A stretch of 64,000 bases of DNA, from contig JAVHKY010000008.1 of NCBI GenBank assembly GCA_035079385.1, forward strand, positions 5,812,001 to 5,876,000, in the 5' to 3' direction. The position numbers and the translations under genes were made by a program. Of the stretch, positions 20,191-44,169 are shown piece after piece (position 1 is the first letter of the stretch; each line of letters opens with the position of its first letter). Source of the DNA: Aspidiotus rigidus. Lineage: Eukaryota; Arthropoda; Insecta; Hemiptera; Diaspididae. Below the pieces are notes generated by a model. The model searched no databases and was not told the origin of the DNA. It saw only the letters and a program-made list of their open reading frames with translations.

Positions 20191-20272
20191 ATACGAGTAT
20201 GAAGCACTCGTGAAATTGCCTACTAATCATCCTGACTATGACTGATGGCTGTCCCACTTAAATTCAGACTCC

Positions 20273-21100
20273 ATGTCTTTAGCTACTTCACCGTATGTCT
20301 TAGGAATCTTTTCCGACGCCTCTCTAACCGGCTGGGGAGCAGTGGCCAAGGATCGCAAAATACATGGGGTTTGGGACAAAAATCAGGAAAGCCTCCACAT
20401 CAACGTCCTAGAACTGTTAGCGGCCTTCCTTGCGCTCAAGGCGTTTGCCTCCCACTTCTCCAACTGTAGAATCTTACTCCGCCTAGACAACACCACGGCG
20501 ATTGCTTATATTAACAAGATGGGAGGTACCCAGGTATCACATTTGAACGATCTAGCCCGTCAACTATGGCATTGGTGCGAAGAACGCCAAGTGTTTGTTT
20601 ACGCGTCTTACATCTCCTCAACAGATAACCGGGAGGCAGACGCAGAATCGAGAAGATTAAAACCCGAGACGGAATACTCAATCTCCACTGAGGCGTTCCT
20701 GAAGATAGTAAAATACCTGGACCAGCCCCAAATTGATTTGTTTGCCTCCAAAACAAATAAGAAATGCCAGGCCTACTGTTCCTGGAAACCAGACCCAGAA
20801 GCACTGGCCGTTGATGCCTTCGTCATACCCTCGACAGAAACTTTCTTCTACGCCTTTCCACCCTTCAACCTTATTCTCCGAACACTCCAAAAAATCCAAA
20901 CAGACAAGGCAGAAGGAATTCTGGTGATCCCCTACTGGACTGCCCAGCCGTTGTCCCCCCGTTTCCAGGGCTTACTTGTTGCTCCCCCGTTGTTCTTGTC
21001 TTCTTCTATTAAACTATTATCTTCTGTCGACAGCAGACCTCACCCCCTGCACCGGAAACTTTCCCTGGTGGCAGGGAAGTTATCGGGAAGGCGTTGCTGA
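20273..21100 (+). pseudogene. DIRS-like RNase H and downstream domain
   Basis: The longest intact block of the element (275 codons). RNase H residues are visible: GIFSDASLTGWGAV (Asp), LELLAAFLALKAF (Glu), LRLDNTTAIAYINKMGG (Asp) and READAESR (Asp). After it comes IDLFASKTNKKC, SWKPDPEALAVDAF, FYAFPPFNLILRTLQKI and GILVIPYWTAQP, the conserved DIRS segment between RNase H and recombinase, often annotated as a methyltransferase-like domain. The last residues (after 20990) are out of register. Confidence 0.82.
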
Positions 21101-22973: not shown

Positions 22974-23559
22974 CTCTAGCCGGGTAAGGGAAAGGGGAAG
23001 TGGTTTTGGTCGAAAAATGTTTCAAATGTCCGTCAAAATGTTGTCCCTTGAGGACTCTATCTTATTTACTAATGAGAAAGCTCGAAAACCAAAAAATTTG
23101 TCCAATCCGCTCACCCACATGGGCTGCAGAGTCAAATTTAGTCCTAAAATCCAAATGGCTGTATCTCAGGCAATAATGATCGCACAAAAATGTAACTTGG
23201 GGACGTTTTGGGATATGTGAAGTTCATCCATAGTATTTTTTCAAAAAAAAAATCATTCATATTTTTCGTAGTTTCTAGCAATAACAAAACTTCAAACTCG
23301 AAAATTAAAAAAAAAATCGGGGGGAGGAGGCACCTGGAAAAAATCATTCATTTGAAGCGCCATACCTTCTACTACAACATACATTAGTACCATAGTCCTC
23401 AGTGAGGTGGAACATTCCCAAAAAAATCAATATTTAATGAATTTCTGTGATTTTTCCATGAATAGCGGGGTGAACTACGACTGCTACCGCAATAGACCGC
23501 GTGAAATCAATAGTCAATGTTCGAGCTGAAAAATACACCCTCCTCCGTGAGATGAAGTG

Positions 23560-25085
23560 GGAATGTAGATAGACCAAAAATATATATTCAGAATTTCGTT
23601 TATCGATTTGGTCAATTTTTATGTAAACACATCCACAGATTAGGTAGAGTCCGTTAGATTGAGAAAAATAGTTGAAAAATTCTCGACGCGCTGGAACGGT
23701 CTGAAAACAGTAGAGAAGTGAGAAAACCCACATTTTCACCCTGGAGGACCGTGAGTTTTGGTATTTCATTCATCAATTAGGTTGATTATAATGTAAACAC
23801 GTTCACCGAGTTCGAAAAAATTGGTCAAAAAATTCTCCAGCCACTGGAACGTTCTGGAAATGACAAATAATCAAGAAAATCCAGTTTTTCACCCTGGAGG
23901 ACCGTGAGTTTTGGTATTTCGTTCATCAATTAGGTCAATTTTAATGCAATCACATCTGTCGAATTTGAAAAAAAATTGTCAAAAAATTCTCCAGTCGCTG
24001 GAACAGTCTGGAAATAGTAGAAAATCGAGGAAGTCCACTTTTTCAACATGAAGAGCTGTGATTTTTGGTATTTTGTTCATCAATTACGTCACATCTTATG
24101 TAAATACGTCCACCGAGTTAGAAAGAAATAGTCAAAAAATTCTCCAGTTCCTGGAATGCCCTGGAAATAGTAAATAATCCGGGTAATCCACTTCTCCAAC
24201 ATGGAAACCCGTAATTTTTCATATTCTGTTCATTAAGAAGGTCAATTCTCACGTAAATACGTCCACCAAGTTGGAGAAAAATGGTCAACAAATTCTCCAG
24301 TCGCTGGAGCGGTCGAGACACAGTAGAAAATCGAAGAAGTCCGCTTTTAGCGAGGAACCCGCTATCCCTTTTGTTGGGGGTGCTTCCAGGAAATTTTCGT
24401 CCGCGAGCGCGAGCGTGAGCGAGGTTGATGACGTCACGGAGAGGGGAGCGGGACTCAGAAAAATTCCTACTTCCGAGCTATATATGATAGGATGGGGGAC
24501 TTCGAAAAATTTTGATCCTCTAGCCATATATGATAGGAAGGCGACTTAGAAAAATTCCTTCCTCCGAGCTATATATGATAGGAGGGGGACTTGAAAAGAC
24601 GATGGCTTCCTTGAAATTGCAGCGCGTTCAAGTTGTCACGTCATGATTTTCAGGACTTGGAAAAACTTCAGGCTCTAGGGGACTCAGGACAGCGGGTTTC
24701 CGCGGCCATTGCAGTCCTGCAATGGTATCTAATTTTTTCAAGGTGTTTTGTTCATCGAGTAGGTCAAATCTGATGTTAATACGTCGTAAAAGTTGGAAAA
24801 AAATAGTCAATCAATTCTCCAGTCGCTGAAGCGCTCTAGAAATAATAAAAAATCGAGAACATCCACTTTTTCAACCTGGACAACCTTGGTTCTTGGTATT
24901 TTGTTTATCAAATAAGTCAATTTTCATGTAAACATATCCGCCGAGTTTGAAAAAAATATTCAACAAATTCTCCAGTGGCTGGAACAGTCTGGAAATAGTA
25001 GAAAATCAAGGAAATCCATCTTTTCAACCTTAAGAACCATTTCTGGCGATTCATCCATTGATTTGGTCAATTCTCTAGTCGTTGG
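23560..25085. repeat. 153-bp satellite array in the left arm
   Basis: The marker TTCTCCAGTCGCTGGAAC recurs with CTGG at 23691, 23844, 23998, 24151, 24304, then 24826 and 24979. Steps are 153 or 154 bp except one of 522 bp, which holds an inserted repeat. Each unit also carries TTTTGGTATTTCATTCATCAATTAGGTC, GTAAACACATCCACCGAG and TCCACTTTTTCAACCTGGA text. Units differ by many substitutions, so the array is old. Confidence 0.9.
24350..24731. repeat. TGACGTCA/TATATATGATAGG repeat, copy 2, inserted in the satellite
   Basis: Inverse copy of 8432-8868: it begins GGAACCCGCTATCCCTTTTG, has GATGACGTCACGGAGAGGGG, four TATATATGATAGG blocks, and ends CCATTGCAGTCCTGCAATGG. It breaks the 153-bp period between units 5 and 6, so it arrived after the array had formed. 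Confidence 0.88.
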
Positions 25086-25376
25086 GAGGCTCTGGAAGTA
25101 ATAAAAACCAAAGATACACACCCACCCCTAAGATTCTTTAAAATGTTGAATGTTTATTTTTGTTTCCCTGAAGTCGTAGTGGTACGAGTAGAAACTGTCT
25201 TACTAGGAGCGGTGCACTTGCATGAAGTGGAGGAATCTCCCCTCGAGTTGAGGTGACAATGCTTCAAATATTGGAGTTCATGAGCATGACAATACAAGGA
25301 GATGATTGTCTTCTATTGTGTCTCGGGAGGAGATTCCTCCATATCATGCGAGTGCACAGCTACCAGTAACACAATT

Positions 25377-25631
25377 CAGGGTTGCCACTTTTTTTCAATT
25401 ATGAAATTCCCTGACTTTTTTCCGACTTTTCCAGGTATTTTTAATATTTTTCCATGACTTTTTTTGCAACTTCATTTGCTCACTCTTTATGAATAAACTC
25501 TTCTTTTTTTTCTTTATCGCAAATCGCGCGGAAATTTAATCAAAAGTAAGGATTTCCTTGACTTTTCCAGGACCAAAAAAATCCCTGACTTTTCCCTGAT
25601 TTCCAGTTTTTCCAGAAAAGTGGCAACCCCG
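25377..25631. mobile_element. 255-bp hAT-like MITE (CAGGGTTGCCACTTTT ends)
   Basis: CAGGGTTGCCACTTTT at 25377-25392 is matched by AAAAGTGGCAACCCCG at 25616-25631, with CAATT directly repeated on each side (25372-25376 and 25632-25636). Inside are TCCCTGACTTTTCC-type subterminal words in both orientations. Removing it restores the inverted-arm text of the foldback element. The TIR start CAGGG is typical of hAT-derived MITEs, although a hAT duplication would be 8 bp. Confidence 0.78.
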
Positions 25632-25639
25632 CAATTTGT

Positions 25640-26160
25640 ACCGCTGCGACTCGAGGGAAAAAAAGTAACCAATGAATTATAGTGGCAGATGAGTATCTTT
25701 GATTTTTTAATATTTCCAGAGCGTCCTAACGACTGGAGAATTTTTTTCATTTTTTTTTGAACTTGGCGTAAGTGTTCTTACAACAATCGACCATAGCCTA
25801 AAATTACGGTCTTACAGGTTGAAAAATGGCCTTTCTCGATTTTCTACCATTTCTATACCGTCCCAGCGACTGGAGAATTTGTTGACCAATTTTTTCGATT
25901 TCGGTAGACGCGTTTTACATTATTATAATCACCTAATTGATGAATGAAATACCAAAACTCACGGTCCTACAGGGTGAAAAAGTTGATTTTCTCACTTCTT
26001 AACTGTTTTCAGACTATTCCAGCACCTGGAGAATTTACTGACTATTTTTCTCAATCTAACGCACTTTACCTAATCCGTGGGTGTGTTTACATAAGAATTG
26101 ACCAAATCGATAAACGAAATACTGGAAACATATTTTTGGTCTCTCATTGGGGGTAACATT
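25640..26160. repeat. 153-bp satellite, inverted units in the right arm
   Basis: The marker is read as its complement: GACTGGAGAATTTTTTTC near 25731, GCGACTGGAGAATTTGTTGACC near 25868 and CACCTGGAGAATTTACTGAC near 26024. Flanking text (TGAATGAAATACCAAAACTCACGG) is the inverse of the left array. Confidence 0.88.
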
Positions 26161-26286
26161 TTGATGAGCATTTGAAACATTTGTCGACCAAGGCCATCCC
26201 CCCCCCTCACCCCGACTAAAGCCTTTGTTAAGGAAGGCAAAATTCTACAAAATAAGTTGAAGAAAAAATGGCTAATTACTCATATC

Positions 26287-26484
26287 CAGAGACCGAATTT
26301 TTCGGCATTTTTGATGGAGATTTTCGGCACTAAAAATTCAGTTTTCGGCATTATTCGGCAATAATGAAAAAAATACCATTTTTTTTGCATTTTTTGAGTC
26401 ATTTAATGCTAAATTCGGCAAAAACGACGATTTCGGCATTTATTTTTTACTTTTTCGGCATTTTGCCATGAAATCCGGTCTCTG
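26287..26484. mobile_element. 198-bp hAT MITE with perfect 8-bp target duplication
   Basis: Ends CAGAGACCG (26287-26295) and CGGTCTCTG (26476-26484) are inverted, and CTCATATC is duplicated exactly on both sides (26279-26286, 26485-26492). The interior has repeated TTTTCGGCA words in both orientations, like the TTTTCGG subterminal repeats of the hAT at 59.6 kb. An 8-bp duplication plus such subterminal repeats indicates a hAT-mobilised MITE. Confidence 0.9.
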
Positions 26485-26492
26485 CTCATATC

Positions 26493-27239
26493 ACATTCTT
26501 GATTATTTTGTAAGATATTTACTGTACAAAGATCCGAGAAGTTTGACTTCATAACATTGTAGAGTGCACTTTACAGCCCCATGTTTAGAAATCAACACAA
26601 CTATGAAGAAAGAAAAAAGTGCAGTGTTTCAATAATACAAGGACGAGATGGAGCAGGAATATTGTACGGTGATTTCTAGTACATACCAAGGAGTGTAAAA
26701 TGAGAAATTTGATATCACTACAGAAATAAGTCAAAGAAAGGCGAGAAAATGTCCAAGTGGTCAATTTCTCATATCACTATTTTAATTTGTAAGATATTTT
26801 ACTGTACGCAGGACTGTAAAGTGTAGTAGGCTAAATATGAGCTAGAACCAAAGAAGCATTTTACACGAAAACTCGTTGAATTCTCAGAACATGTACGCGT
26901 CCAACCTTTGAGCCGCCACCATTACTGGCCTTTGATTGACCTAATTTAGAGACTCGAATAATTTTCGCGTTCGGAATTTTAATGAGGGGAGGACTTGGAA
27001 AAATTTGGAGCTACGAACCTTTGCACATGTGCGCCTTGAGGAAGGTTGAGCTCTTGACAATGAACCAAATCGACTTATCTCGAAAAAAATTCGACTCAAA
27101 ATTGGATTCCTAGTTCCGTCCCAGTGTCGTGATAGCTCACATCCCCAAACTCTCATTCTTAAACTTTCAAACATTTTCTCGCGAGTCCCATAAAACATTC
27201 ACGGGCCTTTTCCGGCCGTGTATCCTCGGCCGCCCGGCT
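26493..27239. other. No gene recognised
   Basis: A+T-rich sequence with repeated GGACTGTAAARTG words (26690, 26815). A GGGGAGGACTTGGAAAAATTT phrase near 26980 echoes the TGACGTCA/TATATATGATAGG repeat family. Confidence 0.4.
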
Positions 27240-27535
27240 GGGCCAGTACGATATAGCTATTTGCGGGAGCATAAGCGACTTTGTGGCAAGCGACACCGCA
27301 AACGGCTTTCTTCTACTTTTGACTATTTGTGGGACCTTTTGCAATTTCATGGCAAATAACACCGCAGGCGCCACTTTTTTTATCTGTGCTAATTTGTGAT
27401 TTTGTGGCAAATGACACCGCAAACGCCTCTCTTCAAATTTGGACTATTTGCGGGACCTTTCGCGATTTTATGGCAAATGATACCGCAACCGCCTCTTTTC
27501 TGATTTTGACTATTTGGTGGACCTTCATTATCACA
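27240..27535. repeat. 66-bp tandem repeat, about four units
   Basis: Units run ACTATTTGCGGGACCTTT, GCGATTTTATGGCAAATGAC, ACCGCAAACGCCTCTTT, with starts near 27252, 27321, 27390 and 27444. The third unit is shorter by about 12 bp. Because 66 is divisible by three, both strands stay open (27329-27712 plus, 27159-27422 minus), giving repetitive frames (VANDTANAS on the plus strand). I see no evidence that these are genes. Confidence 0.8.
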
Positions 27536-29479
27536 TTTGAGCTGTTTGAATATTTCCTCCATTGCGGCTATTGCCTTTTTCTACCTTGGAGTAATCCCCA
27601 GTTCTGTCTCATTATCCTGGTTTTAACGTTTTTATACATTTCTTCTACAATGTCTGTAAGAATATGCTGCTGCATATTCTTGCACGTTGGCACTCGCAGA
27701 CAGAATAGGTAGTCGTAGTTGTTATAAGAGATTAGAATAGAGATAGCGAGTGTCAGTTAATTCACGTTTTGTACGTGTAGTTGAGATGTCGTTCAATAGA
27801 GACTCGGTAGCAGGAAAGACGAAGGTCTTCGGATCAATAGAGACCTGTTGCCGAGAAAGACGAAGTTCGATTCTTACATGTCCATATATCCTTTGGGGGT
27901 TCCCTGCCAAAGGGCATTTATCAAAATATGTTTTGATACTGCAACCGTTGATGCGTTCCGTTATGATCCCCGATGAGTAAACGAGGTCATTACTAGAGAT
28001 TGGAAAGACGGATCGAAAAATGGAAAACAGCGTCGTTTTCAGCGTCCAAAATACTTCGAGAAAAGTAAAATCGTTTTGGAATGCCAGAGTATGACCAAAA
28101 AATTGTCACATCGTGTTATTGTACAATCAAATTAAGGCGAGCTGACGACCCGTCTTGAGTAGTCGCGTGGTTTGTTAATGAAAAAAGTTACCATATTATC
28201 TTAGTATAATGGATGGTAATCGAACTATAATGTATTTCCAGGTGAAGCAGCATAATGCATACAGTTTGACAAAATTAAAAGAAATTTAAAAACTTTCAAC
28301 AGAAACCATCATGAATAAATTCTCAAGTAGATGATTTCATAGTACACTTTGGAATCCATACACGATAAATTAGGAAAGAAGCCTACTTCTAGTAATCGAA
28401 AATAGTACTTAGAAAACTTGTAATGATACATTTTTTCTCTGCACTATTCGAAGTAGTATGGTGAGATTCGTCAAGAACAAGATTAATATGAATATATCAT
28501 GCTGGCCAGTGTCATAAATGGTCGGTGATGTAAAAAGTACTGGTACCAGTATAGTATAACACAAGAGTACTGGTTGGTATTATATTTATCATCTAATAGA
28601 GAAATGTGAAAACAAGTCGCATCTGTCACCTGAGAACCACAACGTTGAACAAGCTCTGGAAACTATATTAAATATATATTTCCTTTAGATTTCCGCACCT
28701 ACTCATTCGTAGATCGGGTATTATTACTTTGGGAACACTGTACCGAAGACTAGTGAAAGGTGTTAATCTCGTTCGGAGATACTCAAACTTCGCTTTTTAA
28801 ACCTCACATTGTGACGACAATAATGTCAGGATGTAAGAATCAGTACGTGCTCTTGGGGGAATATCGTGATGAAGAGATTTACGGTTTTCAGGATAACATT
28901 GGTATTTCGAATAAGAAAATGACGAGGTTAGTGTAACGCCGATAATTCATTGTTTCCAATCGTATTGCCCGACTCTATCTTCTTCTATATAATATTGATA
29001 TACCGCAGATGAACGACTACAAGGAAGAAGAGAGAGAAAAAAAGAAAATGATATGAAAAGCGAGTTTCGCCGTTAAAACCGCATCTGATTTGTTTTTCGT
29101 ACGTGCATTTATGCATAACGTGGCAAATGTCACGAATCGTACTAACTTTTCTCGTGTAGTCTGTTATCTTTTTGTATAGAATAGCACACACTCTCTTTGT
29201 TTCGTATTCTCTCAAATGATTTACGACGCGTTTTCATTTTATTGAAATACGTTCGGAAGAACGGAAAACGTCGCGTCACAGTCGACTGGCACGGCGTGCA
29301 AAAACGAATAGAATTGAGAACTGATGGAAAATCGCATTTTTGGTAATAAATACGGAGGAAAGCGTATTGCAACTCGTGTTTATTGTGGCTAAGTTTTGAC
29401 GTGCGGCGTTTCTTCACGGATAAATGATGATTTTTCGCCTTACTTTACTTTTATTCTACCAGGTCACCGAAAATTTGGT
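27536..29479. other. No feature recognised
   Basis: A+T-rich unique-looking sequence; small frames lack motifs. Near 28532-28598 there are several GTACTGG-type words without clear period. Confidence 0.45.
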
Positions 29480-29775
29480 ACTCTAATTGTTCCAACTTTA
29501 CGACGGAAGCGATCTCCAGATCGCACCGAAATTTTCCATCGACCTAAAATCGATTGCTATAATGTGTCAAGTCAATTTCAAGTTTCGACCTCCAAATCGA
29601 CTGCTGTGGTGGCTCGATTTCAAGTCGATTTTTTCTGGTAATGTACACTGGTCGACTTCATTCAGGACTCGATTCCGAAACGACTCTACCGAAATTTTTC
29701 ATCGACCTGAAATCGACTGCTCTGGTGGCTCAATTTGAATTTATTTCGTATCTCTCTGGTAATTTACACTTCCTT
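29480..29775. repeat. TCGAC-rich degenerate repeat, locus 4
   Basis: Two units with the family order: CCGAAATTTTTCATCGACCT, GAAATCGACTGCTCTGGTGG, TCAATTTCAAGTCGATTT, TCTGGTAATGTACACTGGTC. It lies a few hundred bp upstream of Penelope B copy 1. Confidence 0.75.
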
Positions 29776-30094
29776 AGCTATCGTTTCGACGTTCATTTGG
29801 AGTATGTTCAGGTTTGTTGGCATTTGTCAGATCATTTTCTGAAGGGGGGGGGGGGGGGCAGAGAAACCAAATACAAACACATTTCAGGTGGGGGCGTATG
29901 GAAAAAAATTTGTTCATGAAAAAGAATCAACTCGCAGCAAAATCGTACCCAGCTTCCTCACCCGGTGCAGTTACAAATACCAAACTGGAGTATTACTTGA
30001 GGCAGGTCCGCATATCTTTTCAGATTTATTTATTCCCTTTTTACTTTCTTTTGCTATTTTTTGTTTTTTCTTTTGGTTTCATTCTACCAAAAGA

Positions 30095-30548
30095 AGCCGA
30101 GGACTACACCAAAAAAGTGGAGTCGAACATCGCAGTTGATGGACACCAAGAGCTGGCAAGGGATCCAACACGGAAATACCAAGATGACCTGAAAGCTGTG
30201 TTGAAACGGAAGGATGTACCCGGCAATGGAAGGACGCTTGAGATGAACCCGGTTGCACCAAAACTCAAGGAACTTGTAAAACTCCGCAAAGCGAACCGTC
30301 CGATGATACCCCTGGTCAACAGCATTCAATCACCATGCTACAAGATAGCAAAGACCGTAGCCACATTCCTGAAAGAAAACTACCAGTTTGCACCCAGACG
30401 AAGTATCAGAAACAACGGAGAGCTGACTGAGCAAATGGACAAGTTGGAAATCAGGAGTAACGACAAGCTGATATCCTTTGATGTGACTAATATGTTTGGT
30501 GCCATACCGAAGGAGGAACTTCCCACTCAGCTCAAAAACAGCAGATAA
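30095..30548 (+). pseudogene. Penelope B RT, N-terminal half (copy 1)
   Basis: Within the open frame 29814-30548 only the part from 30095 is Penelope protein: EDYTKKVESNIAVDG, ARDPTRKYQDDLKAVLK, MNPVAPKLKELVKLRKANRP, NSIQSPCYKIAKTVATFLKE and KLISFDVTNMFGAIPKEELP (motif A with its Asp). The residues before, from 29814, have no counterpart in the other copy and are not part of the protein. The frame is cut at codon 244 by the inserted MITE. Motif PMIPLV replaces PMRPLV of copy 2. Confidence 0.88.
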
Positions 30549-30938
30549 CAGGGTGTCTATCAGAATTGAAAAATGGAAATAGTTGACATTAGTTGACCTT
30601 TTTTCGGTACTTTATTTCACCTAAGAAAATATCAATTCCCCCCCCCCCCCCTCTCCAAACTAATATTGTAATTTCGGTATATTCTTATTCGTTTGCAAGA
30701 ATTATTATTTAATTGAGAAAAGTGCCATTTCAAAAGTCAGAAGTTGGTTGATTATACCTTGAAAGTGGGCATATAGGAAGACATGTGAAAAACATTCTTT
30801 ACACAAAATTATGCATTTTTGGACTTTTTAGTTGACCTACAGATAGAAAAGTTGACTTTACTTGACTTAGTTGACCATGTTGCAAAAAAGTTGACTTTAA
30901 TTGACTTAGTTGACTTAGTTGACCTGGTAGACACCCTG
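30549..30938. mobile_element. 390-bp MITE (CAGGGTGTCTA ends) inside Penelope B
   Basis: CAGGGTGTCTA at 30549-30559 is inverted as TAGACACCCTG at 30928-30938. The target text CAGATA is present on both sides (30542-30547, 30939-30944), and copy 2 has a single uninterrupted CAGATACC there, so the insertion is certain. The right part is rich in TTGACTTAGTTGACC words and a C run lies at 30640-30651. The exact duplication length (6-8 bp) is unclear because of one extra A at 30548. hAT-like ends. Confidence 0.9.
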
Positions 30939-30944
30939 CAGATA

Positions 30945-32091
30945 CCATGGGAACCCCGATGGGTGGAAGTACGCCAACATAGTGGAGGAGATCTTGAGCC
31001 AGAACTACTGCCGCTTCAATAACAGGTTCTACAGTCAGGAAAGGGGACTTGCGATGGGATCACCGCTGTCACCAATACTGGCGGAGGTATTCATGAATGA
31101 TATGGAAACCAAGATATTGAAGGGCAGCAAGTTCAGAAACTCGATCAAACACTGGGCCAGATATGTAGATGATATCCTAATTGTGTGGTCAGGCACTGAT
31201 AGACAGGTGGATCTATTCCTTTCAGAAACAAACGCGATGAATGAGAGCATCAAATTCACAGTGGAAAAAGGCAATGAGGCCATCGACTATTTGGACCTTA
31301 CACTCACAATGGAGAACAATAGGATAGAATACAAAATCTACAGGAAGCCGACGCATACTGACACCATCATCCCAAATGACTCCTACCACCACCCCAGGCA
31401 CAAGTTATCGGCAATCCAGAACTACTGCTATCGGGCAATTTCTATCCTCAAGAACAACGAAAAGAAGAGGAAAGAGATCGAGGTAGTAAAGCAGATCGCA
31501 GAAGCCAATGGCTACCGCAGACGTGTGGTGGAGGGAGTCTTTGGGAAAATGGAAACAAAGAAAGGAACCCATGATGGCATAGTGAGAAAGTACTCCGGAT
31601 CGATACCATATATAGGAAAGTACACAAACAAGGTGATAAAGGCGTTCAATGGCTACGATGTGAATGTTGGTATCCAGAATAACCAACCCATGGTGAAGAG
31701 AATCAGCAATGACCAGACGGAACAAAAGGACAAGGAAAGCTTGAGCGGAGTGTACAAGCTCAGTTGTGAACAGTGCGAGGGGATCTATATCGGTGAGACT
31801 GGGAGAAAGTTTGAGATCAGGAGAAAGGAGCACAAAACGTCGAGGGAGAAAGAAGATGGCAAGTCACTGTTTGGGAAGCACTGTAACGAAGAAAAACATG
31901 ATGGAGAGGGAATATTTGAAGTCATACACGTAGAGAATCGCACAAAGAGAAGAAAACTCTGGGAACAAATGGAGATTGCGAAAGCCAAGAGAAAGAAAGC
32001 CTGCCTCTTGAACGATGTAATCACATTTGACAGCGAAAAATCATTCGGCCTGGTGATTGGACGAGAGAAGAAGAACGGAACCAACCAATGA
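30945..32091 (+). pseudogene. Penelope B RT C-terminal half plus GIY-YIG endonuclease (copy 1)
   Basis: The open frame 30982-32091 (369 codons) is intact and in line with the homologous text from 30945. RT motifs: ERGLAMGSPLSPILAEVFM (motif B), WARYVDDILIVWSG (motif C, both catalytic Asp), AIDYLDLTLTM and YKIYRKPTHTDTIIP. Endonuclease: LSGVYKLSCEQCEGIYIGET with the paired Tyr residues, GRKFEIRRKEH (Arg) and FGKHCNEEKHDGEGIFEVIH. GIY-YIG fused C-terminally to RT is unique to Penelope-like elements. The first half was separated only by the MITE, so before that insertion the element was apparently intact from 30095 to its end. Confidence 0.93.
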
Positions 32092-32307
32092 GACGGCAGG
32101 AATCCAGGTAGCCAACAGAAACGCAGCATTTAGGACAATGGATTGAACCAACCACGAAGGAGTATGTTTTAGCCAATAAGAACACAATGTCATATTATTG
32201 TAAGAATGAGTTTCTAAGAAGTGAACCAATCACGACACAGCATTGTTATAGCTGATAAGATCACAGTGTTACACTATAAAAACTCATGTTTAAGGCCTTG
32301 TTCTCCA

Positions 32308-32362
32308 GTTGCGACACAACTGATGATGGGATAACACCCGAAAGTACTATTGTAAAAGCAAC
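32308..32362 (+). ncRNA. Hammerhead-ribozyme motif in Penelope B 3' region, copy 1
   Basis: Stem I: GTTGC (32308-32312) pairs with GCAAC (32358-32362) and ACAA (32316-32319) with TTGT (32350-32353), separated by GAC opposite AAAA. Core CTGATGA lies at 32320-32326. Stem II is GGG (32328-32330) with CCC (32337-32339), one unpaired T before it. Then come GAAA (32340-32343), a minimal stem III from the palindrome AGTACT (32343-32348) and the cleavage base A (32349). Hammerheads with very short stem III are known in Penelope-like elements. The extra T at 32327 departs from the consensus. Confidence 0.8.
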
Positions 32363-32734
32363 TAATAAAGTAGATTTGTACAATTGAAAAACCCTTTTTC
32401 AGTATTAGTGCTCTACTTACACCTCACTCACTCATTATGAGTTCCGATAATACCGCAATTTTTTCCATCTCAGCAAGAAGGGAACCGTTGTCATATTTTC
32501 AATGATCTCTACTTTATTTCTGAATGTATTCAAAATGTGATTATCGTTTCTTATAGAAAAAGAGTTGCTCTTCAATTTTCATCCTTACCATTTTTTTAAT
32601 TAAACTCGTTGTTGCGGAGATATTTTGACTTCAAACTGATTTTTCTGTAATGAATTTTTCTTCACGGACGCCCTTTGTACAGATAGGTCCTCATATGTTT
32701 ACGCGTGCCAAAAAATCCTGTCTCTATTCATTAC

Positions 32735-32885
32735 CAATACAACTGACGACGGATTAACACCCGAGAGTACTCCTGTAAGCTAATTAATAAATAGGAACCG
32801 TACATTCGAGATCTATTTCATTTCGGGTGCACTACTTACACCTCATCATGTACAAAATTGGTTCCAGTGATAACAATAAGATGAA
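32735..32885 (+). repeat. Decayed second Penelope terminal segment
   Basis: AACTGACGACGG, TTAACACCCGAGAGTACTC, GTAAGCTAATTAATAAATAG, then GTGCACTACTTACACCTCA and GGTTCCAGTGATAA follow the same order as 32318-32455. The hammerhead core is damaged (GAGA for GAAA, one mismatch in stem I). It is an older, partial tandem copy of the element's terminus downstream of the intact one. Confidence 0.75.
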
Positions 32886-33070
32886 AATGTTATACAACAT
32901 CGAAAATATTGAAGATGAATATGAGTACAGATAGTACTAGATGAAATAGGTTGAATTGTGAGGACCATCGTGAATTAAATGGAAGAATAAATAACCATCA
33001 TCAAGTTGGCCTAATCTGCCCAGGGCCAAGATGAGAGGAAACGGTCATAAAGAAAGAACGCGAGACCCAA

Positions 33071-33311
33071 ATGTCACATCCCCCATTCTTTCAGAATATT
33101 ATGATAAGGAAGAAATTAATAAAAAAATTTCTTGATGAGACCACCTCCCTCCCCCGTCATACAATCGATATTATTAAATCTAATAAATGGATTCGTCTCC
33201 CTTATTTGGGTGAATTTTCTTCCTTATTGGGTCTTGTTCTGAAACCCTTTGGATTCAAACAAGCCTACTTACTTTTGTCCTACCACTTTTAAACAGATTT
33301 TCCGCTTCCCT

Positions 33312-33363
<52 letters not shown>

Positions 33364-33520
33364 CGAGCTTCTTAAGGCTGTAGGTGAGTCTGCTTTGGCT
33401 GATAATTTCATATCACAAAATCATTCATTGGAAGAGGATTCTACTCTTCTCACGCTTTGCTCTTGAAAATATTGAAATCGTCCGTCATAAAAATACTCTT
33501 AAGCAAAAACTAGGCTAACT
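33071..33520 (+). pseudogene. Penelope-like fragment with GIY-YIG replaced by (GA)n
   Basis: Frame 33071-33292 gives IRKKLIKKFLDETTSLPRHT and IRLPYLGEFSSLLG then LKPFGFKQAY, matching the linker between RT and endonuclease in family A (61050-61230). A (GA)n tract at 33315-33358 stands where the GIY-YIG core should be. Then GESALADNFISQNHSLEEDS and, after a frameshift, ALENIEIVRHKNTLKQKLG resume the C-terminal endonuclease text (compare ALEEIEILRHRNN at 12.7 kb). It is a third Penelope relative, distinct in sequence from both A and B copies. Confidence 0.75.
33315..33358. repeat. (GA)n microsatellite
   Basis: About 20 GA dinucleotides, ending in GAAAGAGAAC. It interrupts the Penelope fragment. 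Confidence 0.95.
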
Positions 33521-33652
33521 TCACCCTTTATTTTCAAAAAAACATTCACGACGTTTCGAACGAGTAACCGTTTTTTATCAAGTGAGAAAACGAACGTCGT
33601 GAATGTTTTTTGAAAATAAAGGGTGAAGTTAGCCTAGTTTTTGCTTAAGAGT
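33495..33652. repeat. Long hairpin (58-59-bp arms) at a Penelope terminus
   Basis: ACTCTTAAGCAAAAACTAGG...CATTCACGACG (33495-33553) is repeated inverted at 33595-33652 with one A/T run difference. The 41-bp loop carries, on the minus strand, CTTGATAA, an AACG...CGTT stem and CGAAACGTC, which recalls the hammerhead order seen in the other Penelope ends. The left arm overlaps the end of the endonuclease frame. Confidence 0.85.
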
Positions 33653-36243
33653 TAACGTATACTTCACCGATAAAATTTAAATCTGTCATAAAAATAGTTA
33701 TAAAGTTCTTCTTCTCAACCAGTTTACTCCGGCAGATGAGTTTATTGAAACGGTTTACTGCTCTGGTCATGAACCACCATGACTCCGTCATCTTCTTCCT
33801 ATTTTCCTTCTCGCGTCTTCGTTTTCCTGTTCATACTGTATGTTTGCTTCAGTACGTGTTTTCGATGCTTTGAGAATGGCTGTTTAGCCAAAACCTGGCT
33901 CGTCCTGTATTCGTACTGTGTTTTTATGCAGTCAGTAAATTTAATCGATATCATCTTCTTTGATAATTATGATGAATTTTACACAGATCATTCAATCTGT
34001 AACTCTTGCCAGTCTTTCGACGAACAGTCATCCTCGAGGTTCGCCGATTTCGCACGCAAAATCACGACTAAAGAACTAATTCACACGTTCTCACAAATTC
34101 TGCCATAAATAGCTTCGGATATCGTATTTAAAAATAATTACGTGCGAAACGGAACTAACAGACGGTAATAAAATGTTACAGCTGCAAAATACCTCCTTCG
34201 AATCATAGACGTCGAACCTCACCTCTCAAACATACTCCATTTCCTCACCCTTTATAAGGAATCGTTCCACCCCAGTCATTAGAATTTGACTATTCTAGCC
34301 AGTATAAGAACACTCATCGAATATCGACCACACGGGATAAACACAGATTCATTACAAAGTGTTTCGGCACATCGGCACATTTATTGACACAGGAGATTCT
34401 CACAAAGAAAGCAAAGGTAGAGTAATGGATGGTCGTGAAGGTGACAAGGACAAATATTACGATGAAGGACGAGTAGGAACGAAAACTAGGAAACATTCAC
34501 CACGGACGAGTAAACATTTCAATTCACATATTTATCGGTTCGAAAAGGACGCGCTGGGTCAAGAGTCGTAAATCTTTCGCATGTGCTGCGGTACAACTCG
34601 ACTGATACTCATTTAACGCTTTATTTATACATCTACAAGGAACGTGATAACGAATACGAACCTCGTTCTAGAAATTATATCTAAACGGACTTTTTCCTCT
34701 TCACAAGATCAAACAGCCTCCGTCAGACGCCGGCGAAACAACGTTACAATGGAACAACATCGCATCCATGCATACGAATACGGATCTGAAACACACAGAT
34801 TAAATATTCTTTATTCAAATTCCGAACGTTACACACTGTCGGTATGAATCAATAATTGTAATATGATCAAGCCTTTCGGCTTTTAAAAAATACGCGCGCG
34901 TCAATTCTATTTTTTATTCAAATCTCAATCATTTTGGTCGAAAATGAGGAAATTACGAGTGAAAACAAGAGGGAGGAGAAATTGTCGGCTGCGTTACCGA
35001 TGATAGCAGGTCGTATTACAAATTACCAAATGACGATAAAAATTGAACGTCAACGTGGAAATTCCAACTCTCGTTCGATAGAATACAGCACGCTTTCAGG
35101 CTGAAAGGTAATGTCAATAAAAAAGCTCGAACGAACTCGTTGACCACACACGCATATATCCAATCTAGGCGTCGTAATTTCTTCGATGTGATGAAAAAAA
35201 GTATGTACATAATATACTATCTACTCTCGATACTCAATCAACCGAGATCGCGTCTGTAAAGTGATTCTTCCTAGCGAACCGATATCGTATCCGCGTACAC
35301 GGGTATACGTAAGAAACTCTCGACGTAAATGCGTACACGCGGATGCTGACAGGATATTTTCTACACTTCCTACGGTGCACGTGTAAGATAGGCTGTACAT
35401 TCACTTCGACAAATTTCTTCATTGATGAGTCTTCCTCGCTCCAATTATTCTCACACGTAGACCAGATCACCAACGCATCATCTGCTCTCGGAATAATTAA
35501 ACTTTCCTACGCGACATAGCATCTTCTCTGCTCGTCCGACCTTGCACTTCGAGTTGATGAGAGTATACACATCACATTAGTAAGTCGACGCGATCATCAA
35601 TTACGTCACTTGTACCACGCCTCTCCCATCGTTGGAGATTGTAGGCATAAGACACTCGGCACTACATCGAGTTTTTAATTATATGAAATCAGCGTAAAAG
35701 GGAGAGGGAATGAAAATCAATTTTTTGCAAGTTAACATGCTTGTAATCATGTCCAAATTTGGTTTCTCGACTGATACTTGAAACATATCCTCTTTCTTTT
35801 CAATGCTACGCAGTATCAATCGCATTGAAGTCTCCTACCCTCACCCTCAATATTGTAAGGAGTTATCTGTCAGAACGGATGCCCTTTCGACTTCACACAA
35901 CGATCCGTGAAAAAAAGGATTTCATAATCGTGACGAAACAGAAATTTTGGAAAAATAGGATACTGCCAGTGATCAATATTTTCGATAGTTTAAGATCGCT
36001 TTGAGAGACTATTGAGTACTCAACTTCAAAATTTCAAAAGCAAACAAAATTTTTACTAAAAGGAGGGGGTATAGAAAGAATAATGATAATAATATAAATG
36101 TATGATTTGGCACATTTTGCTCTCGCGCAAATTGCTGGGAATGATAAGTTTTATCTATTTCCAAATTATGGAATTGAACCACTCTTCATGTATCTTGACC
36201 GCCCATACTCAAAAACTTTCTATAAAGAAGCACACTCTAATTT
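33653..36243. other. No feature recognised
   Basis: The frame 33779-34108 (109 codons, hydrophobic N-terminus MTPSSSSYFPSRVFVFLFIL) has no recognisable family and sits next to the Penelope remnant. The rest is A+T-rich sequence with small frames and no motif. Confidence 0.45.
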
Positions 36244-37434
36244 GTTTGCTAGTACAATTGGTCCGCTGGTACACTTGGTTTACTTGTACAACTTGACTGC
36301 TTGCACACTTGGTCTGCCTGCACAATTGGTCCACTTGGACACTTGGGCTGCTGGTCCACTCGGTTTGCTTGTATAACTTGACTGCTTGCACACTTGGTCT
36401 GCCTGCACAATTGGTCTGCTTGTACAATTGGTCCACTTGGACACTTGGGCTGCTGGTCCACTCGGTTTGCTTGTATAACTTGACTGCTTGTACACTTGGT
36501 CCGCTTGTACAATTGGCCTGCCTGCACAATTGGTCTGCTTATACAATTGATCCGCTTGAACAATTGGTCTACTTGGACAATTGGTCTGCTTGTACACTTG
36601 GTCTACTTGTACAATTGGTCCGCTTGTACAATTGGTCTGCTTGTACAATTGGTCTGCTTGTACAATTGGTCTGCTTGTACAATTGGTCTACTGGTACAAT
36701 TGGTCCACTGGTACACTTGATTTGCTTGTACACTTGGTCCGCTTGTACACTTGGTTTGCTTGAACAATAATTGGTCCTCTTGTACACTTGGTTTGTTTAT
36801 ACAATTGGTCTGCTTGTACAATTGGTCTACTTGTACACTTTGTCTGCTTGTACAATTTGTTTACTTGTACAATTGGTCTGCTTGTACACTTGGTTTGCTT
36901 GAACTATTGGCCTGCCTGCACAATTGGTCTGCTTATACAATTGGTCCGCTTGAACAATTGGTCTACTTGGACAATTGGTCTGCTTGTACAATTGGTCCAC
37001 TTGGACACTTGGTCTGCTTGTACAATTGGTTTGCTTGAACAATTGGTCCGCTTGTACACTTGGTCAACTGGTACAATTGGTCCGCTGGTACACTTGGTTT
37101 ACTTGTACAACTTGACTGCTTGTACACTTGGTTTGCTTGATAAATTGGTTTGCTTGTACAACTTGACTGCTTGTACACTTGGTAAGCTTGTACAATTGGT
37201 CTACTGGTGCAATTGGTCCGCTGGTACACTTGATTTGCTTGAACAATTAGTCCTCTTGTACACTTGGTTTGTTTATACAATTGGTCTGCTTGTACACTTT
37301 GTTGCTTATACAATTTGTTTACTTGTACAATTGGTCCGCTTGTACACTTGGTTTGCTTGAACAATTGGTCTGCCCGCACAATCGGTCTGCTTGTAGAATG
37401 TGTCTATTTGTACACTTGGTTTGCTTGCACAATT
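36244..37434. repeat. 17-bp minisatellite, about 70 units
   Basis: Basic unit CTGCTTGTACAATTGGT with variants CACTTGG and TTTGCTTG. Near 36296-36490 a longer block of about 100 bp is itself repeated, so there is higher-order structure. The unit contains no stop codon in any frame, and 17 is not divisible by three. Each strand is therefore open in all three frames over hundreds of bases (for example 36788-37360 plus, 36963-37379 minus), which explains the many apparent proteins. These are not genes. Confidence 0.95.
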
Positions 37435-40400
37435 GAACGCGTCTCTGGAAGGAGGGCCTAACTTGAAAAAATTTATTTTGAGAAAAACGCGTTTAAAGAT
37501 TTAAAATGCTACACCCAAAAAACTATGGCTCCTAGGGGATTGATTAGTTAATAGAATCAAAGAGTGTACGTTCTAAATTTGAGATTAAAAGAAAACATGC
37601 ACCTTGTATCAAATTATTGACAATATATATGGGCCTCAATGTTAGGCCCTTTTTCAACTAACTTTTTTTGGGGCTATTTTTGCGTAAAAATCTTTTTATA
37701 ATACATGAAGCGAAAGTGCTGCGTATCGTGTTCGTTTTTCGTAGCGAAACATGCCGTTATCAGAACCGTGGCGAAAATGTTTTACCAGTGGCGAAAATAT
37801 TTTACCCGTGGCGAAAATCAAGTCAGTGGTGCCATTCGAAAAATTCGTAAACATTCTTTTTGAATGATAACCAATTTAAATTGTAGGCCCAAGTGTTTCT
37901 TTCACTACATGTATTATAAAAAGTACTGTTTGTAATTCATGTCGAAAACAAACGATATTGGAACTTGCTTATCCACACTCGCTTTGCTCGTGTGGCTACA
38001 CTGCGCTCGTTCCAATATCGTTCATTTTCGCCACTTATTACAAAATGTACTATTTTCTGAAATGACAAGTACTCTCATTCACGTGAAATTTTTTTACTGC
38101 CTGCAGGGCGGTAAATTGTCATTTACTGCCCCGCAATGAAAATTTAACGTCTTTATACAGTAAAATATTGTACGCAACTTGTGAAAACAAGCGGTAAATG
38201 ACTTCTTGTGCAACTCACTTCACTCGGCCTCTCCTCATTCAGTGAAGCATTCAATTGGTCTGCTTGTACAATTTGTTTGCTTGTACACTTGGTTCGCTTG
38301 TACAATTGATTGTTGCAAAACCATATGTACAGACAAACCACATATACACTGTACATAATATGGTCTCGTTTTACATTATATGGATGCATGCCCAGAGAGG
38401 ACTTTGCAAATCTTATTTTAGCGTAATGAGCGTGACTGTGCTGTTTTTGAAAAGAAACTACCTCTAGCGTTGTACCTTTGCTTTCCAGTTTCCTGCTAAA
38501 TTGGTACACTATACGATTGTAACACATATTGTACCTAATATTGTAATTTGTACCACAAACTTTTACTAATCAAATGATTAAGTAAACTTTGTTGTTTTCT
38601 GCAATAGTGTTTTGAGTGCTTTTTGATGCCACAATGCCACGTATTTGCCGTGTTGTGAACAAGAGGAAAGAACGTATTTTTTGTCTTGTTTTGTTTACAT
38701 GCACTGTGAACGGCTGATGTAGTTTCCTTGGCTGCCGTTTGACAATAATACGCTATTTGTCAGAGTGGTCCCTAAGACCGGGCTTCAACTTCTGCTTAAT
38801 TGTTGAGAAAAGGATGGCTTTGTTCCGGGTTGGCCCAAAGAAATATTGGCGACCGTTGCCCTCTTTCAATCATTTAAGTTCAATTCTGTGCAATGGTAAA
38901 AGATTATTTGATTGACTTTGATTTTTCTCTCTTCATTCCTCCTCTCTTCCCTTAACAAGATTGTGTCTTCCTCATACCAGTAGAGGAAAGTTAAATGCAA
39001 TAGTTTGAGAATCCTAAATCTCGCTGTTACTCCGTTTCTATTCTCGCATCTTTGCAGTTTCCCTGATTTTGTTATTTCAATCCAGGTTTCAGGCTGCGAT
39101 AGCACCCCACATTATTCACTTGGATGCGTTCGTAAATGGCTGGAATGAGTAGGTGAAATAAGGCAGACGGATCGAGTATTCCGAAAAGGTTCTTGGATCC
39201 GAGTACAGTATTACATGTGGACGTTTCTTGCATGCCGTCTCTAGATTACAAATCGGAAACCGCTATCTCGGCGAACGGAATAATTTGAAACATATCGTTC
39301 AATTCAGATTCAAAACCGAGATAATTTTGAGCGTACATTAATTTCCTCTCAACTTGGTCGGCGTAATACACGTTATTTTAGTCGCGAACGTTTAAACGAA
39401 TTTTCGATCGAAGGTACATTACAAATTTAACGAGATGAAGCAAACACAGAAGGTGTACAACAGAAAATAGGAGGGGGAAAAGTAAATTGAAGAATTCTAT
39501 TTATCGCTTCAATTCCAGAGCGAAAATTATCGTCATTACGATCGTCGAAGGCGCGCCGGATTGGCGGGAAAAAATTAAATATAAGTTTTTCTTATCGCCG
39601 AAATGGCAGCGTGTCTCGTCGTATTACAAAAAAAAATGGTGCGTTGTTCTTCGGAGTTTCCGTAATCTGAATTTCTTTCATTTTTTTTTTTTTTTTCTCT
39701 CCGTCTTCGGTTAATATCCCGACTGTGATTTGTTTACCTCTTTTTCCTCGTTCATAAGCTCTCGAACTAGAAGTGATAGACTGAGAAGGCGAAGGAGGGT
39801 TAAAGGTAAACGGAATAATGCCATTGAAAAAGCAATTTCGTTATGTACGTTTACGAGTATGTAAAAAGTATGTATATCAGTCGTGTTTTTATTTGCCCGG
39901 TATGTATTCGCGAGGTGAATTATATTATATACCATTCGTAACAAGTTAATTCGGATTTATTGTTTTCTTAATCTGGCGGGGTGTCTGGGTGACAGCGATG
40001 TGCATAAGGGGGTGTGGCGAGGGTTGCGTGAAACCGCTATACAAGCTTTACCGTGTGGTGGTTGTGTTTTTCATCGTGCTCCCACGTCGTGGATATTTTC
40101 TGAAGGGTTATTTTTCAAGTAAAAATTTTCACGTATCGCTTCGGTGACGAGGGCGGTAAGGTCGGAGACAGGAAACGAATCATGATAAGTGTTTTCGAGA
40201 GCCTGAGAGCTCTGCAAACGAGTAACTAGCAAAATTTATACAAAATTATGACGTCGTTGTAGAGTGTAGAACAAAGTGTAAGTTCGCATTGTTCGTCGAC
40301 GTATGATTAATGCGTCAAATATAAATGCGCTATTACGGATGCCACCTGGTAAACTTTTCTTTTGCCGTCGAATACTTTTTATATTTACCGTTTTAAAATA

Positions 40401-41280
40401 AAAGAAATGAAAAAAAAAACGAGCCCAGAGTAACAGTGTACGCTGTATATGTGTTGTACTCTCCGGAGATATTTTTATGAGCCTAAAGTACAGTATGGAG
40501 TATAATATGTATGCACTCAGTATAGACGCTAATATACGCGAGAGATGAGAGAGAAAGAATAAATGAAGAAAGAAAGTAGGAAGCGCGGAAGTGTACGGTC
40601 GTTGAAATTATTTTTTCGAATTCGGTATGCACCTCTTTTTTCCTTATTTTGATCGCTCGTCGTCGTACTCTTCGCATATTTTCGTGCTGTAATTATGGTA
40701 ATTGATCTCCTCTGAATGGCAATTATCTGTTACGGAGTATCGGTATTCGACGGCGCTTCTCAAGAATGTATTAATTATCGTGCGCATTGATGGGCGTAAT
40801 TAGTGAAGTCGAGTTGACGATTTTGTCGGTAGCGCGCTATAGTTGGTCCTTCCGCAGGCGTACGACTATTATTGGTATTTCACGAGTTCGAAATCGAAAC
40901 GAAAAGAAGAGTGTCTAGAAGGTTGTTAATTTAGACAAGCGGTGATGTTTTTCTTTTTCATCTTACGTGACCGATATTTTTTTTGTAGAAATGTAAGACG
41001 CATTCTTTTTGCTTAGCTTCGGGGTACTTCCGGAATGTTGCGGCTCCTTTCGAGCTGCTGTGCTATTGATGAGGAGCACGTAGTCATGGTTTGAAAAAAC
41101 GATGACAACAAGGTGGCCTTTGGCTGGGAAACTGGAGAAAGTAAAGGAGAATTTCATTCGGAGAGAATCTGCAATTTCTTTTCACGAAAAACGGGGAATT
41201 GGCTAAGAATAATTTGTACTTTCATTTATAATTATTCGATTAATAATATCAGATTTGATCTTAAAACAGCTTAATTAGTA
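37435..41280. other. Mostly unique sequence, one hairpin and a small 17-bp satellite outlier
   Basis: Five or so units of the 17-bp minisatellite recur at 38250-38310. An inverted repeat AACGATATTGGAAC / GTTCCAATATCGTT lies at 37951-37964 and 38009-38022. GTGGCGAAAAT is repeated at 37769-37820. No gene recognised up to 41280. Confidence 0.5.
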
Positions 41281-41586
41281 CTCTCAAAGCGGTTAAAAGG
41301 GAAAACGGGCTTGGTCGCAAAATGTTGCATAAGAATTGGACCCATCAGCTCACCCATACGGGTTTCAGAGTCAATTTTGGGCTTAAAATCCAAATGAGTA
41401 TCTCAGACAAGAATGATCGTAGAGCGATGAGTCTTGGAGACATTTTAGAGGATGTTGACATTCATCCGAGTTCTTAAACTCGTTTACCAAAAAAAAAAAA
41501 AAATTTTCTGGCATAGCCAAATAAATCAAAATCATGTTCCATGTCTTTTATATTTTATCAGTCATCTCGAAATATTTCAGTCTAGG

Positions 41587-41918
41587 CTTCTACTAGGTCA
41601 TGTGTTCGTGAGATATTATTCGTTTACCCCTTTACCTATCTTGGCGTCGTATAAGTCTTCTATGAGAAATATATAAGGTAGCGCGAACTCGCTGTTGTAT
41701 TGGAATAGTATGTGACAATTTAAGTCTAGGGGACTTGGAAAAATTTCGACTATCCAGCCTTTATTTATTTAATTATTTAATTATTCAATTATTCAATTAT
41801 TCAATTATTTAATTATTTAATTATTGAATTATTTAATATTATTCATTTATTTATTTATTTATTTATTTATCTATTTATCTATTTATTTATTTATTTATTT
41901 ATTTATTTACTTATTCAT

Positions 41919-41957
<39 letters not shown>

Positions 41958-42171
41958 TTATTAATTCTTGTACTAGGTCAAGTGTTCGTGAGATATTATT
42001 CGTTTACCCCTTTACCTATCTTGGCGTCGTATAAGTCTTCTATGAGAAATATAAGGTAGCGCTCGCTGTTGTATTGGAATGGTATGTGACAATTCAAGTC
42101 TAGGGGACTTGGAAAAATTTCGACTATCCAGCCTTTATTTATTTAATTATTTAATTATTTAATTATTTATT

Positions 42172-42203
<32 letters not shown>

Positions 42204-42212
42204 TCTATTTAC

Positions 42213-42243
<31 letters not shown>

Positions 42244-42500
42244 TTATTAATTCTTGTACTAGGTCAAGTGTTCGTGAGATATTATTCGTTTACCCCTTTA
42301 CCTATCTTGGCGTTGTATAAGTCTTCTATGAGAAATATGATGTAGCGCGAACTCGCTCCGCTCGTTCGCCCCCTGTCTCGCTGTTGTATTGGAATGGTAG
42401 GAGACAATTCAAGTCTAGGGGACTTGGAAAAATTTCGACTATTCAGCCTTTATTTATTTAATTATTTAATCATTTAATTATTATTGAATTAATTATTTAT
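41587..42500. repeat. Three long units with (ATTT)n expansions
   Basis: Units begin CTTCTACTAGGTCATGTG (41587), CTTGTACTAGGTCAAGTG (near 41967) and again near 42252. Each contains TTACCTATCTTGGCG, GGGGACTTGGAAAAATTTCG and an (ATTT)n/(AATT)n tract of different length, so the units differ mainly in microsatellite size. Confidence 0.9.
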
Positions 42501-43010
42501 TATTATTACGCGGGGTGTACTCGCGAATTTCTGAATCACCCACGGGGTAGAGATTTTCTAATTATTAATTATATTAATTATGTAATTATATTAATTATTT
42601 ATTTATATTAATTATTTATTTATTTAATTATTTAATTAATAATTAATTAATCATTTATTATTATTACGCGGGGTTTACTCGCGAATTTCTGAATCACCCA
42701 AGGGGTAGAGATTATTTTCCAATTATTTATTATATTAATTATTTAATTATTTATTTATTTAATTATTAATTAATTAATTAATTAATTAATTAATTATTTA
42801 TTATTATTACGCGGGGTGTACTCGCGAATTTCTGAATCACCCAAGGGGTAGAGATTTTCTAATTATTAATTATATTAATTATTTAATGATTTATTTATTT
42901 AATTATTTGATTATTTAATTATTTAATTATTGATTAATTAATTATTTATTATTATTACGCGGGGTGTACTCGCGAATTTCTGATCACCCACGGGGTAGAG
43001 GTTTCTCTTG
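42500..43010. repeat. About 145-154-bp tandem repeat, four units
   Basis: TATTATTACGCGGGGTGTAC followed by CGCGAATTTCTGAATCACCC and GGGGTAGAG recurs near 42505, 42660, 42805 and 42950, separated by A+T-only spacers. Confidence 0.92.
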
Positions 43011-44169
43011 ACGGGGGGAGGGGGGAAGGGGGGTGTACTCACGAGTTTCAAAATCGGGGTCCGGCGAGAGAAAAGACATGGAACATGTCAAAATTTGGGG
43101 TGGCACTGAGGGAAGTTCATTCATCTGATGCCCCATGCTTTCCAATACGACATACTTCAGTTAGCATCACACTCGGTAGTCAGGTAAAACACTCCCAAAA
43201 AAATCAATATGTAATTGGTGAGTCTCCATGATTTTCTTCATCAATAGCGGGGTAAGCTACCACTGCTAGCGTAATACACCGCGTGAAATTAATAGTCAAT
43301 GTTCGGGCTGAATAATATGCACTCCTGATATTCTTTTTCTTTACTTTTACACGCCCATTTTTCTTTTTCCCCCAAGTCGTAGCGCCACAAACTGTGTTAC
43401 CGGGAGAGTGTAAGAATTCCCTCTCAAGATAATGAGACAATACTTCAAAAATTAGGATTTATGAGCAAAGTAACACAACAAAAAGATCGTCTTCTGTTGT
43501 AAACTCGCGCCGAGAGAACGGCGATCGTCCCGCATTTGATCGAAGCCGGAGATTACGTGAAAATTCTCGTTGTGTTCTACAGCTGGTAGGAATGATAGAC
43601 GAGTTTTTTTTCTGCTGCCAGACCGCGGTGAGAGGACGGCGATCGCCCCGAGTACGATCGAAGCGGAAGAATGTGCGAAAATTCTACAACGATGGTGGAA
43701 AGGAGTGATATTAATTTAATGAATTTCCGCAGGTGCCACCTCAGATTTTCTCTAGTTAAATGAGTTAAAAGTTTCGTAATTGCTAGGAACGAAGAAAAAT
43801 ATGAATATTTTCTTTCAGAAAAAAAATCTACATCTTCTAAAATGTCTCCGAGTTTCATATTATTGCCCGAGATGCAGCTATTTAAATTTTGGGCGTAAAG
43901 ACGGCTCTGTAGCCCATATGGGTTAGCGGGTGGTTTCGATTGTTGGATTCCGAGTTCTCTCATTGGCGACAATATTTCCACATACATTCAGAATATTTTG
44001 CAACCAAGGCCGTCCCCCCCTTACCAGGCTGGAGTTTTTACAAGTTTAAAAAGTTGTAAGCAAAGACATCAAATTTTTCAGTGAAGTTCCTTTTGTAAAT
44101 GACAGGAACTCTTTTCAATCCCAAATATCATGATTTTAACACAGAAACTGTTTTTTCGGAAAAAATATC

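Follow-up and report, generated by a model that had tools for sequence, protein, structure and literature searches.

Two related elements with long terminal inverted repeats, in which nesting appears to mimic an exchange of satellite cores

Can a family of transposable elements carry unrelated satellites in one and the same slot, and thereby seed satellite DNA? The question is raised by two elements in the 64-kb stretch of DNA whose first lines appear above (the window): element 1 (22974-26221) and element 2 (41281-44034), which lie approximately 15 kb apart. An earlier note proposed that they belong to one foldback transposon family in which different satellites occupy the same place between shared outer arms. 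A real slot of this kind would make the pair an analogue, equipped with long terminal inverted repeats (TIRs), of those Helentrons in the oyster that are known to bear unrelated satellites. We consider it likely that elements 1 and 2 are instead two old, probably immobile copies of one non-autonomous long-TIR DNA transposon family, and that the apparent sharing of a slot is due to nesting. Element 1 would be a foldback-type copy with satellite arms mutually inverted around a palindromic block; element 2 would be a copy without the 153-bp satellite, with a different tandem-repeat-bearing element in its left TIR. The family is known from these two copies, both in the window.

The elements were compared by BLASTN, excluding matches inside the AT array of element 2. 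The shared termini, the CTCACCCA-GGG block and two internal blocks (A and B) were recovered at the positions first reported. The left end of element 1 (22958-23374) matches the right end of element 2 on the minus strand (44050-43693; 64%, E=3e-26), and 23092-23252 matches 41331-41498 at the left end of element 2 (71%, E=3.5e-18). The truncated right TIR of element 1 (26138-26204) is likewise recognizable in element 2 (43954-44020; 72%, E=1.5e-5). Block B (25123-25333 against 43320-43515) is shared at 61.9% (E=1e-10), as is block A (Table 1), from which a 22-mer has two matches in the window against 0.01 expected. In both elements block A precedes block B, and neither block is inverted relative to its counterpart. 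Element 1 on its left and element 2 on its right have a TIR of some 330 nt; the left TIR of element 2 is shorter, and the right TIR of element 1 is truncated. What had been described as outer arms is in part this true TIR, mixed with blocks A and B, which do not belong to it.

Between the two left TIRs 151/192 gap-free columns are identical, and within element 2 the counts are 45/58 at the ends and 136/178 in a fuller alignment; those for the left TIR of element 1 with the right TIR of element 2, and with its own right TIR, are given in Table 1. Divergence within an element is thus about the same as divergence between elements, which indicates that both copies are probably old and decayed. A profile of the TIR arm finds only four arms exceeding 4.7, the best score of 20 shuffled windows; because the profile was built from those four arms it is no independent test, a role that falls to the pairwise BLASTN matches. 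Judged by their sequences, elements 1 and 2 are true relatives, members of one non-coding family with long TIRs.

Table 1. Features of elements 1 and 2 and of the units nested within them, with window positions and supporting evidence.
Feature	Position	Strand	Evidence
Left TIR, element 1	22974-23340	+	243/305 gap-free columns identical to element 2 right TIR
A block, element 1; start overlaps inner TIR end	23324-23544	+	75.7% to 43097-43326, E=6e-33 (BLASTN)
Left satellite arm, element 1; 153-bp monomers, broken by nested element	23568-25100	+	Tandem Repeats Finder; monomer profile
Nested HINE/Helentron-like element; ~45-bp central repeats, sub-terminal inverted repeat, 3' hairpin	24350-24735	+	80% BLASTN over 442 nt to copy 8437-8875
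B block, element 1; palindrome with 25632-25700	25105-25376	+	Shuffle test; homologous to 43320-43515
Nested candidate miniature inverted-repeat transposable element (MITE); 16-bp TIRs CAGGGTTGCCACTTTT (1 mismatch), CAATT directly outside both ends	25377-25631	+	Inverted ends
Right satellite arm, element 1, inverted	25690-26145	-	79.0% over 467 columns to 23568-24031, E=4e-81; mirror-paired monomers
Right TIR, element 1, truncated	26146-26221	-	58/72 gap-free columns identical to left TIR end; E=2.8e-8
Left TIR, element 2, outer part	41281-41532	+	BLASTN, alignment
Apparently independent nested insertion of 1555 bp; holds (ATTT)n repeats and 143-bp GC-island repeats	41533-43087		Perfect 17-bp inverted ends CATGTTCCATGTCTTTT; 7-bp duplication TCAAAAT
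Inner end of left TIR, then A block, element 2	43088-43326	+	BLASTN, alignment
B block, element 2; no palindrome detected	43320-43515	+	BLASTN; palindrome score 61, shuffle mean 65
Right TIR, element 2	43696-44034	-	BLASTN, alignment

The (ATTT)n and ACGCGGGGTGTACTCGCG repeats previously reported in element 2 are present there. The core that contains them begins with its inverted end at 41533 and finishes with the exact reverse complement at 43087; the two copies of TCAAAAT are exact and stand directly outside these ends. Over 58533 window positions examined (the repeat regions at 36.1-37.5 kb and 41.0-43.5 kb were left out), an exact 7-bp match flanks a 1555-bp stretch at eight. Perfect 17-bp inverted pairs spaced 300-3000 bp apart are found elsewhere in the window in the satellite of element 1, at 16192/16667, at 61828/63904 and as a poly-T pair. 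Removal of the 1555 bp allows the left TIR of element 2 to continue into block A, as it does in element 1; the TIR-A junction of element 1 being uninterrupted, element 1 displays the site without the core. When 1555 bp were excised at each of 60 positions, one every 4 nt, the cut at 41533 gave the best fit to element 1 (score 1092; next best 1080; uncut 732). Around the insertion point BLASTN leaves unaligned 71 nt of element 1 (23253-23323) and 43 nt of element 2. The region 41533-43087 looks like a separate insertion, nested in the left TIR of element 2.

Element 1 is built differently. From the outside inward its left side consists of the TIR, block A, satellite and the left part of B, and its right side of the truncated TIR, inverted satellite and the right part of B. 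Monomers are oppositely oriented on either side of the palindromic B block, and the earlier observation that the satellite occurs in both orientations within the element holds. All 14 matches to the monomer profile (E 1e-3, whole window) fall within 23590-26125, confining the satellite to element 1. The monomers pair as in a mirror: the outermost partial units are 92% identical, the next pair 88% and the next, with one left unit skipped, 87%, whereas the remaining pairs aligned over more than 40 positions range from 66 to 85%. With 25371-25641 left out, the left part of B aligns to the reverse complement of the right part with a score of 223, against a maximum of 112 in 300 shuffles. The proposal of a foldback family is therefore sustained as regards the long TIRs at both loci and the tandem repeats within the inverted arms of element 1; element 2 has no such arms.

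Across the two elements there are two nested insertions and probably a third. The first in element 1 (24350-24735) interrupts the left satellite arm and displays the features ascribed to HINE/Helentron elements in a published account, namely sub-terminal inverted repeats near both ends, a 3' palindrome and central repeats (PMC4067079). Its inverted repeat lies at 24354/24686 and its hairpin has z=-3.7. At up to three mismatches, the 5' sub-terminal repeat alone was matched in the copy at 8437-8875; a further match lies at 39255, where no element of this kind is seen by eye. The second (25377-25631) interrupts the B palindrome and is a probable nested MITE. It is the less secure of the two because it occurs only once in the window and because, at up to three mismatches, 14/100 shuffles also gave at least two matches to its TIR. 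A motif like GGGACTTGGAAAAATT, or its complement, is visible by eye not only in the tandem repeat at 44230-45196 but in 8437-8875, in 24350-24735 and in the core of element 2 (41730-42450).

If satellites were exchanged within a common slot, then unrelated arrays should lie at the same position of related flanks. This is not what the two elements show. In element 1 the satellite fills two places, one separating A from B and the other separating B from the right terminus. Element 2 has block B directly after block A; against this junction the joined A and B of element 1 score 209, the maximum from 300 shuffles being 121. The element 2 core interrupts the left TIR, the satellite of element 1 flanks B, and A and B of element 2 adjoin; hence there is no common slot. 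The arrangement of these sequences points to nesting, and not to slot exchange, as the reason why unrelated satellites accompany shared arms. The case illustrates that, to the eye, a nested insertion in one of two copies can pass for a replaced core.

A variant that sits within the nesting account, and agrees with it that there is no shared slot, takes the satellite to be ancestral: inverted satellite arms would have flanked B left and right, and deletion between short repeats would have removed them from element 2. The mirror-paired arms of element 1, together with a satellite-to-B junction on both sides, suggest that the array lay beside B before the palindrome formed or when it did. Short CACCCCT-like motifs, seen by eye at both edges of the satellite array, permit deletion as well as insertion, and are compatible with loss of the satellite by element 2 or its gain by element 1. 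Nothing direct speaks against this course of events, the direction of change not being derivable from two copies, and we regard it as possible, if somewhat short of an even chance. A later arrival of the satellite was sought in the identity of its arms (approximately 189/215, from 88%) relative to that of the TIR ends (58/72); the difference is not significant (p=0.12).

With three repeat-bearing units in two element copies, one may also imagine that long TIR arms are a preferred landing site for tandem-repeat-bearing elements and, in element 1, their cradle, satellites being gathered and spread by nesting and arm conversion with no fixed slot; this we think unlikely. Less probable still is one slot open to unrelated satellites: it does fit that the elements have blocks in common while their ends enclose two tandem arrays unrelated to each other, and related flanks carrying unrelated repeats have a precedent in group 2 of the oyster Cg_HINE elements (PMC7492417), yet here the arrays occupy different positions, that of element 2 lying between the outer left TIR and block A, within inverted ends and a flanking duplication of its own. 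That unrelated repeats have simply been fused, with no transposon family behind them, is barely credible: heavy nesting, decay and the missing target duplications described below would suit such a chance composite, but four TIR arms, with A and B in the same order, recur at two loci with E-values down to 6e-33.

Several observations count against our account of two related copies, one of which hosts a nested core. The cut positions are weakly separated, the eight best scoring 1071-1092, and the sequences around the insertion point align with many gaps. Mirror order gives the best match for three of the four right-arm monomers, although it passes over one left monomer; the fourth unit is partial and equally close (83%) to two left monomers. 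Three of the units were compared over only about 50 nt, and one partial pair gives 85% in one direction and 73% in the other. As only two copies are known, absence of the satellite from element 2 may reflect loss and not a lack of gain. The 12 nt next to the TIR ends were searched for a target-site duplication of at least 5 bp, and neither parent element yielded one; random placements gave one by chance in 138/300. Transposition of the parent elements is for that reason not shown; decay may explain the missing duplications. Nor was the autonomous partner envisaged in the earlier note encountered: a Pfam scan of 51/56 stop-to-stop open reading frames (ORFs) of at least 110 aa in the window revealed no transposase, the five left out being frames of a 17-bp minisatellite.

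The Pfam matches obtained in the window were to reverse transcriptase (one below the cut-off), RNase H, PCIF1_WW (below the cut-off) and Adipogenin (0.0045, weak). Within elements 1 and 2 there were none in the 11 ORFs scanned, from 39 ORFs of at least 55 aa that overlap them. None of 16 candidate proteins matched, at E 0.001, the ORF located over the right TIR of element 2, and Rfam returned no match in the window. An ORF at 59814-60434 (minus strand, 207 aa), whose appearance we take by eye to resemble the end of a hAT transposase, has no Pfam match at E 0.01.

Movement of such elements would be in trans, by a cut-and-paste transposase recognizing the TIR, and monomer number could be altered by unequal exchange or slippage. 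Gene conversion, or else inverted duplication, may account for the likeness of the two arms; such an origin has been proposed for those of Galileo, a Drosophila element of the P superfamily. Galileo has long TIRs, internal tandem repeats in some copies, internal sequence recruited into its arms, and other transposons nested in its TIRs (PMC4168063, PMC3573991, PMC3688188); its tandem repeats contain extra transposase binding sites (PMC3688188). It resembles elements 1 and 2 in its long TIRs, in having tandem repeats in the TIRs or arms of some copies and in its nested transposons. It differs in possessing a transposase and a 7-bp target duplication, neither of which was found here.

Tetris, from Drosophila virilis, is comparable to element 1 by description, not by sequence. 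It is described as a non-autonomous foldback element with modular inverted arms, comprising a flanking domain, ~220-bp tandem repeats and an inner domain around the middle; no transposase-bearing copy was found, and it is portrayed as a seed of satellite arrays (PMC4079207). Non-autonomy and modular repeat arms are common to both. Tetris, as presented there, has an 8-10 bp target duplication, whereas none is visible at element 1, whose right arm is truncated, and element 2, unlike Tetris, is without satellite. The Cg_HINE Helentrons of the Pacific oyster have satellite-like central arrays, and their group 2 (Cg_HINE_3 and Cg_HINE_6) shows the very arrangement proposed for elements 1 and 2, which this pair does not show (PMC7492417). 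Cg_HINE elements have Helentron ends (a sub-terminal inverted repeat and a 3' palindrome) where the parent elements have long TIRs; it is the nested unit at 24350-24735 that resembles them. Target duplications span 7-10 bp in the foldback-type relatives considered, and no exact match of at least 5 bp was found at either element; we therefore claim a foldback architecture and not membership of a named family.

Open-licence PMC text, searched with no name of an organism or element, yielded no description of this family. What the earlier note proposes in general terms is not new, since satellites in long-TIR arms (Tetris, Galileo) and unrelated satellites on related flanks (Cg_HINE) are both in print. 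With the present pair, mirror-paired satellite arms gain a further example, apparently from an insect other than Drosophila.

Derivation of the satellite from the TIR or block A, as in Tetris, was hinted at by simple shuffles; dinucleotide shuffles were inconsistent and left it unsupported. They reached the observed score in 67/500 cases for the left TIR of element 1, 3/500 for the right TIR of element 2, 13/500 for block A of element 1 and 153/500 for that of element 2. Both TIRs were outscored by a control stretch, one of three (158, reached by 0/500). Searches for copies in other collections returned a TIR 16-mer in 39 stretches of viral contigs, none of which aligns over more than 26 nt to either element at E<=1 (best E 0.023); the neighboring bases look unrelated, and we take these matches as chance. 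A satellite 19-mer was found in one stretch, which has no match to the window at E 1e-3 and matches the satellite over at most 22 nt. The A-block 22-mer and a satellite 24-mer were absent from both viral and (prokaryotic) genome contigs; such absence says little, the collections being viral and prokaryotic.

The window looks like insect nuclear DNA, to judge from its retroelements. Among the best 120 matches listed, the best named match to the reverse transcriptase at 30934-32091 is a psyllid protein (Cyamophila willieti, 42%), ranked under a match of 88%, and, among as many for the ORF at 20246-21097, RNase-H-like according to its matches, the named ones are insect proteins. Two copies of one reverse-transcriptase retroelement, 94-96% identical, lie at 30092-32253 and 57864-59628; they are far less diverged than elements 1 and 2. 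We presume the retroelement to be Penelope-like; GIY-YIG domains occur on some of its homologues.

Just outside the right end of element 2 lies a ~443-bp tandem repeat rich in TGACGTCA (44230-45196). The 17-bp minisatellite, AATTGGTCTGCTTGTAC, has about 70 copies at 36239-37435 and 38252-38308, including a detached three-copy outlier 0.8 kb away. A MITE-like stretch of ~490 bp at 16192-16683, whose inverted ends, TTAAGGGTGTGCTTTACTTGTT, measure 22 bp by eye and 17 bp in the scan for perfect pairs, is suggestive of what we take to be a TTAA-target transposon. Perfect 47-bp inverted arms with a 64-nt loop are present at 33495-33652, and the perfect 17-bp inverted pair at 61828-63920, CCGACTTTTCCCGGTTT, is spaced ~2 kb apart. 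Finally, 61278-61659 matches 56010-56371 in inverted orientation (80%, BLASTN).

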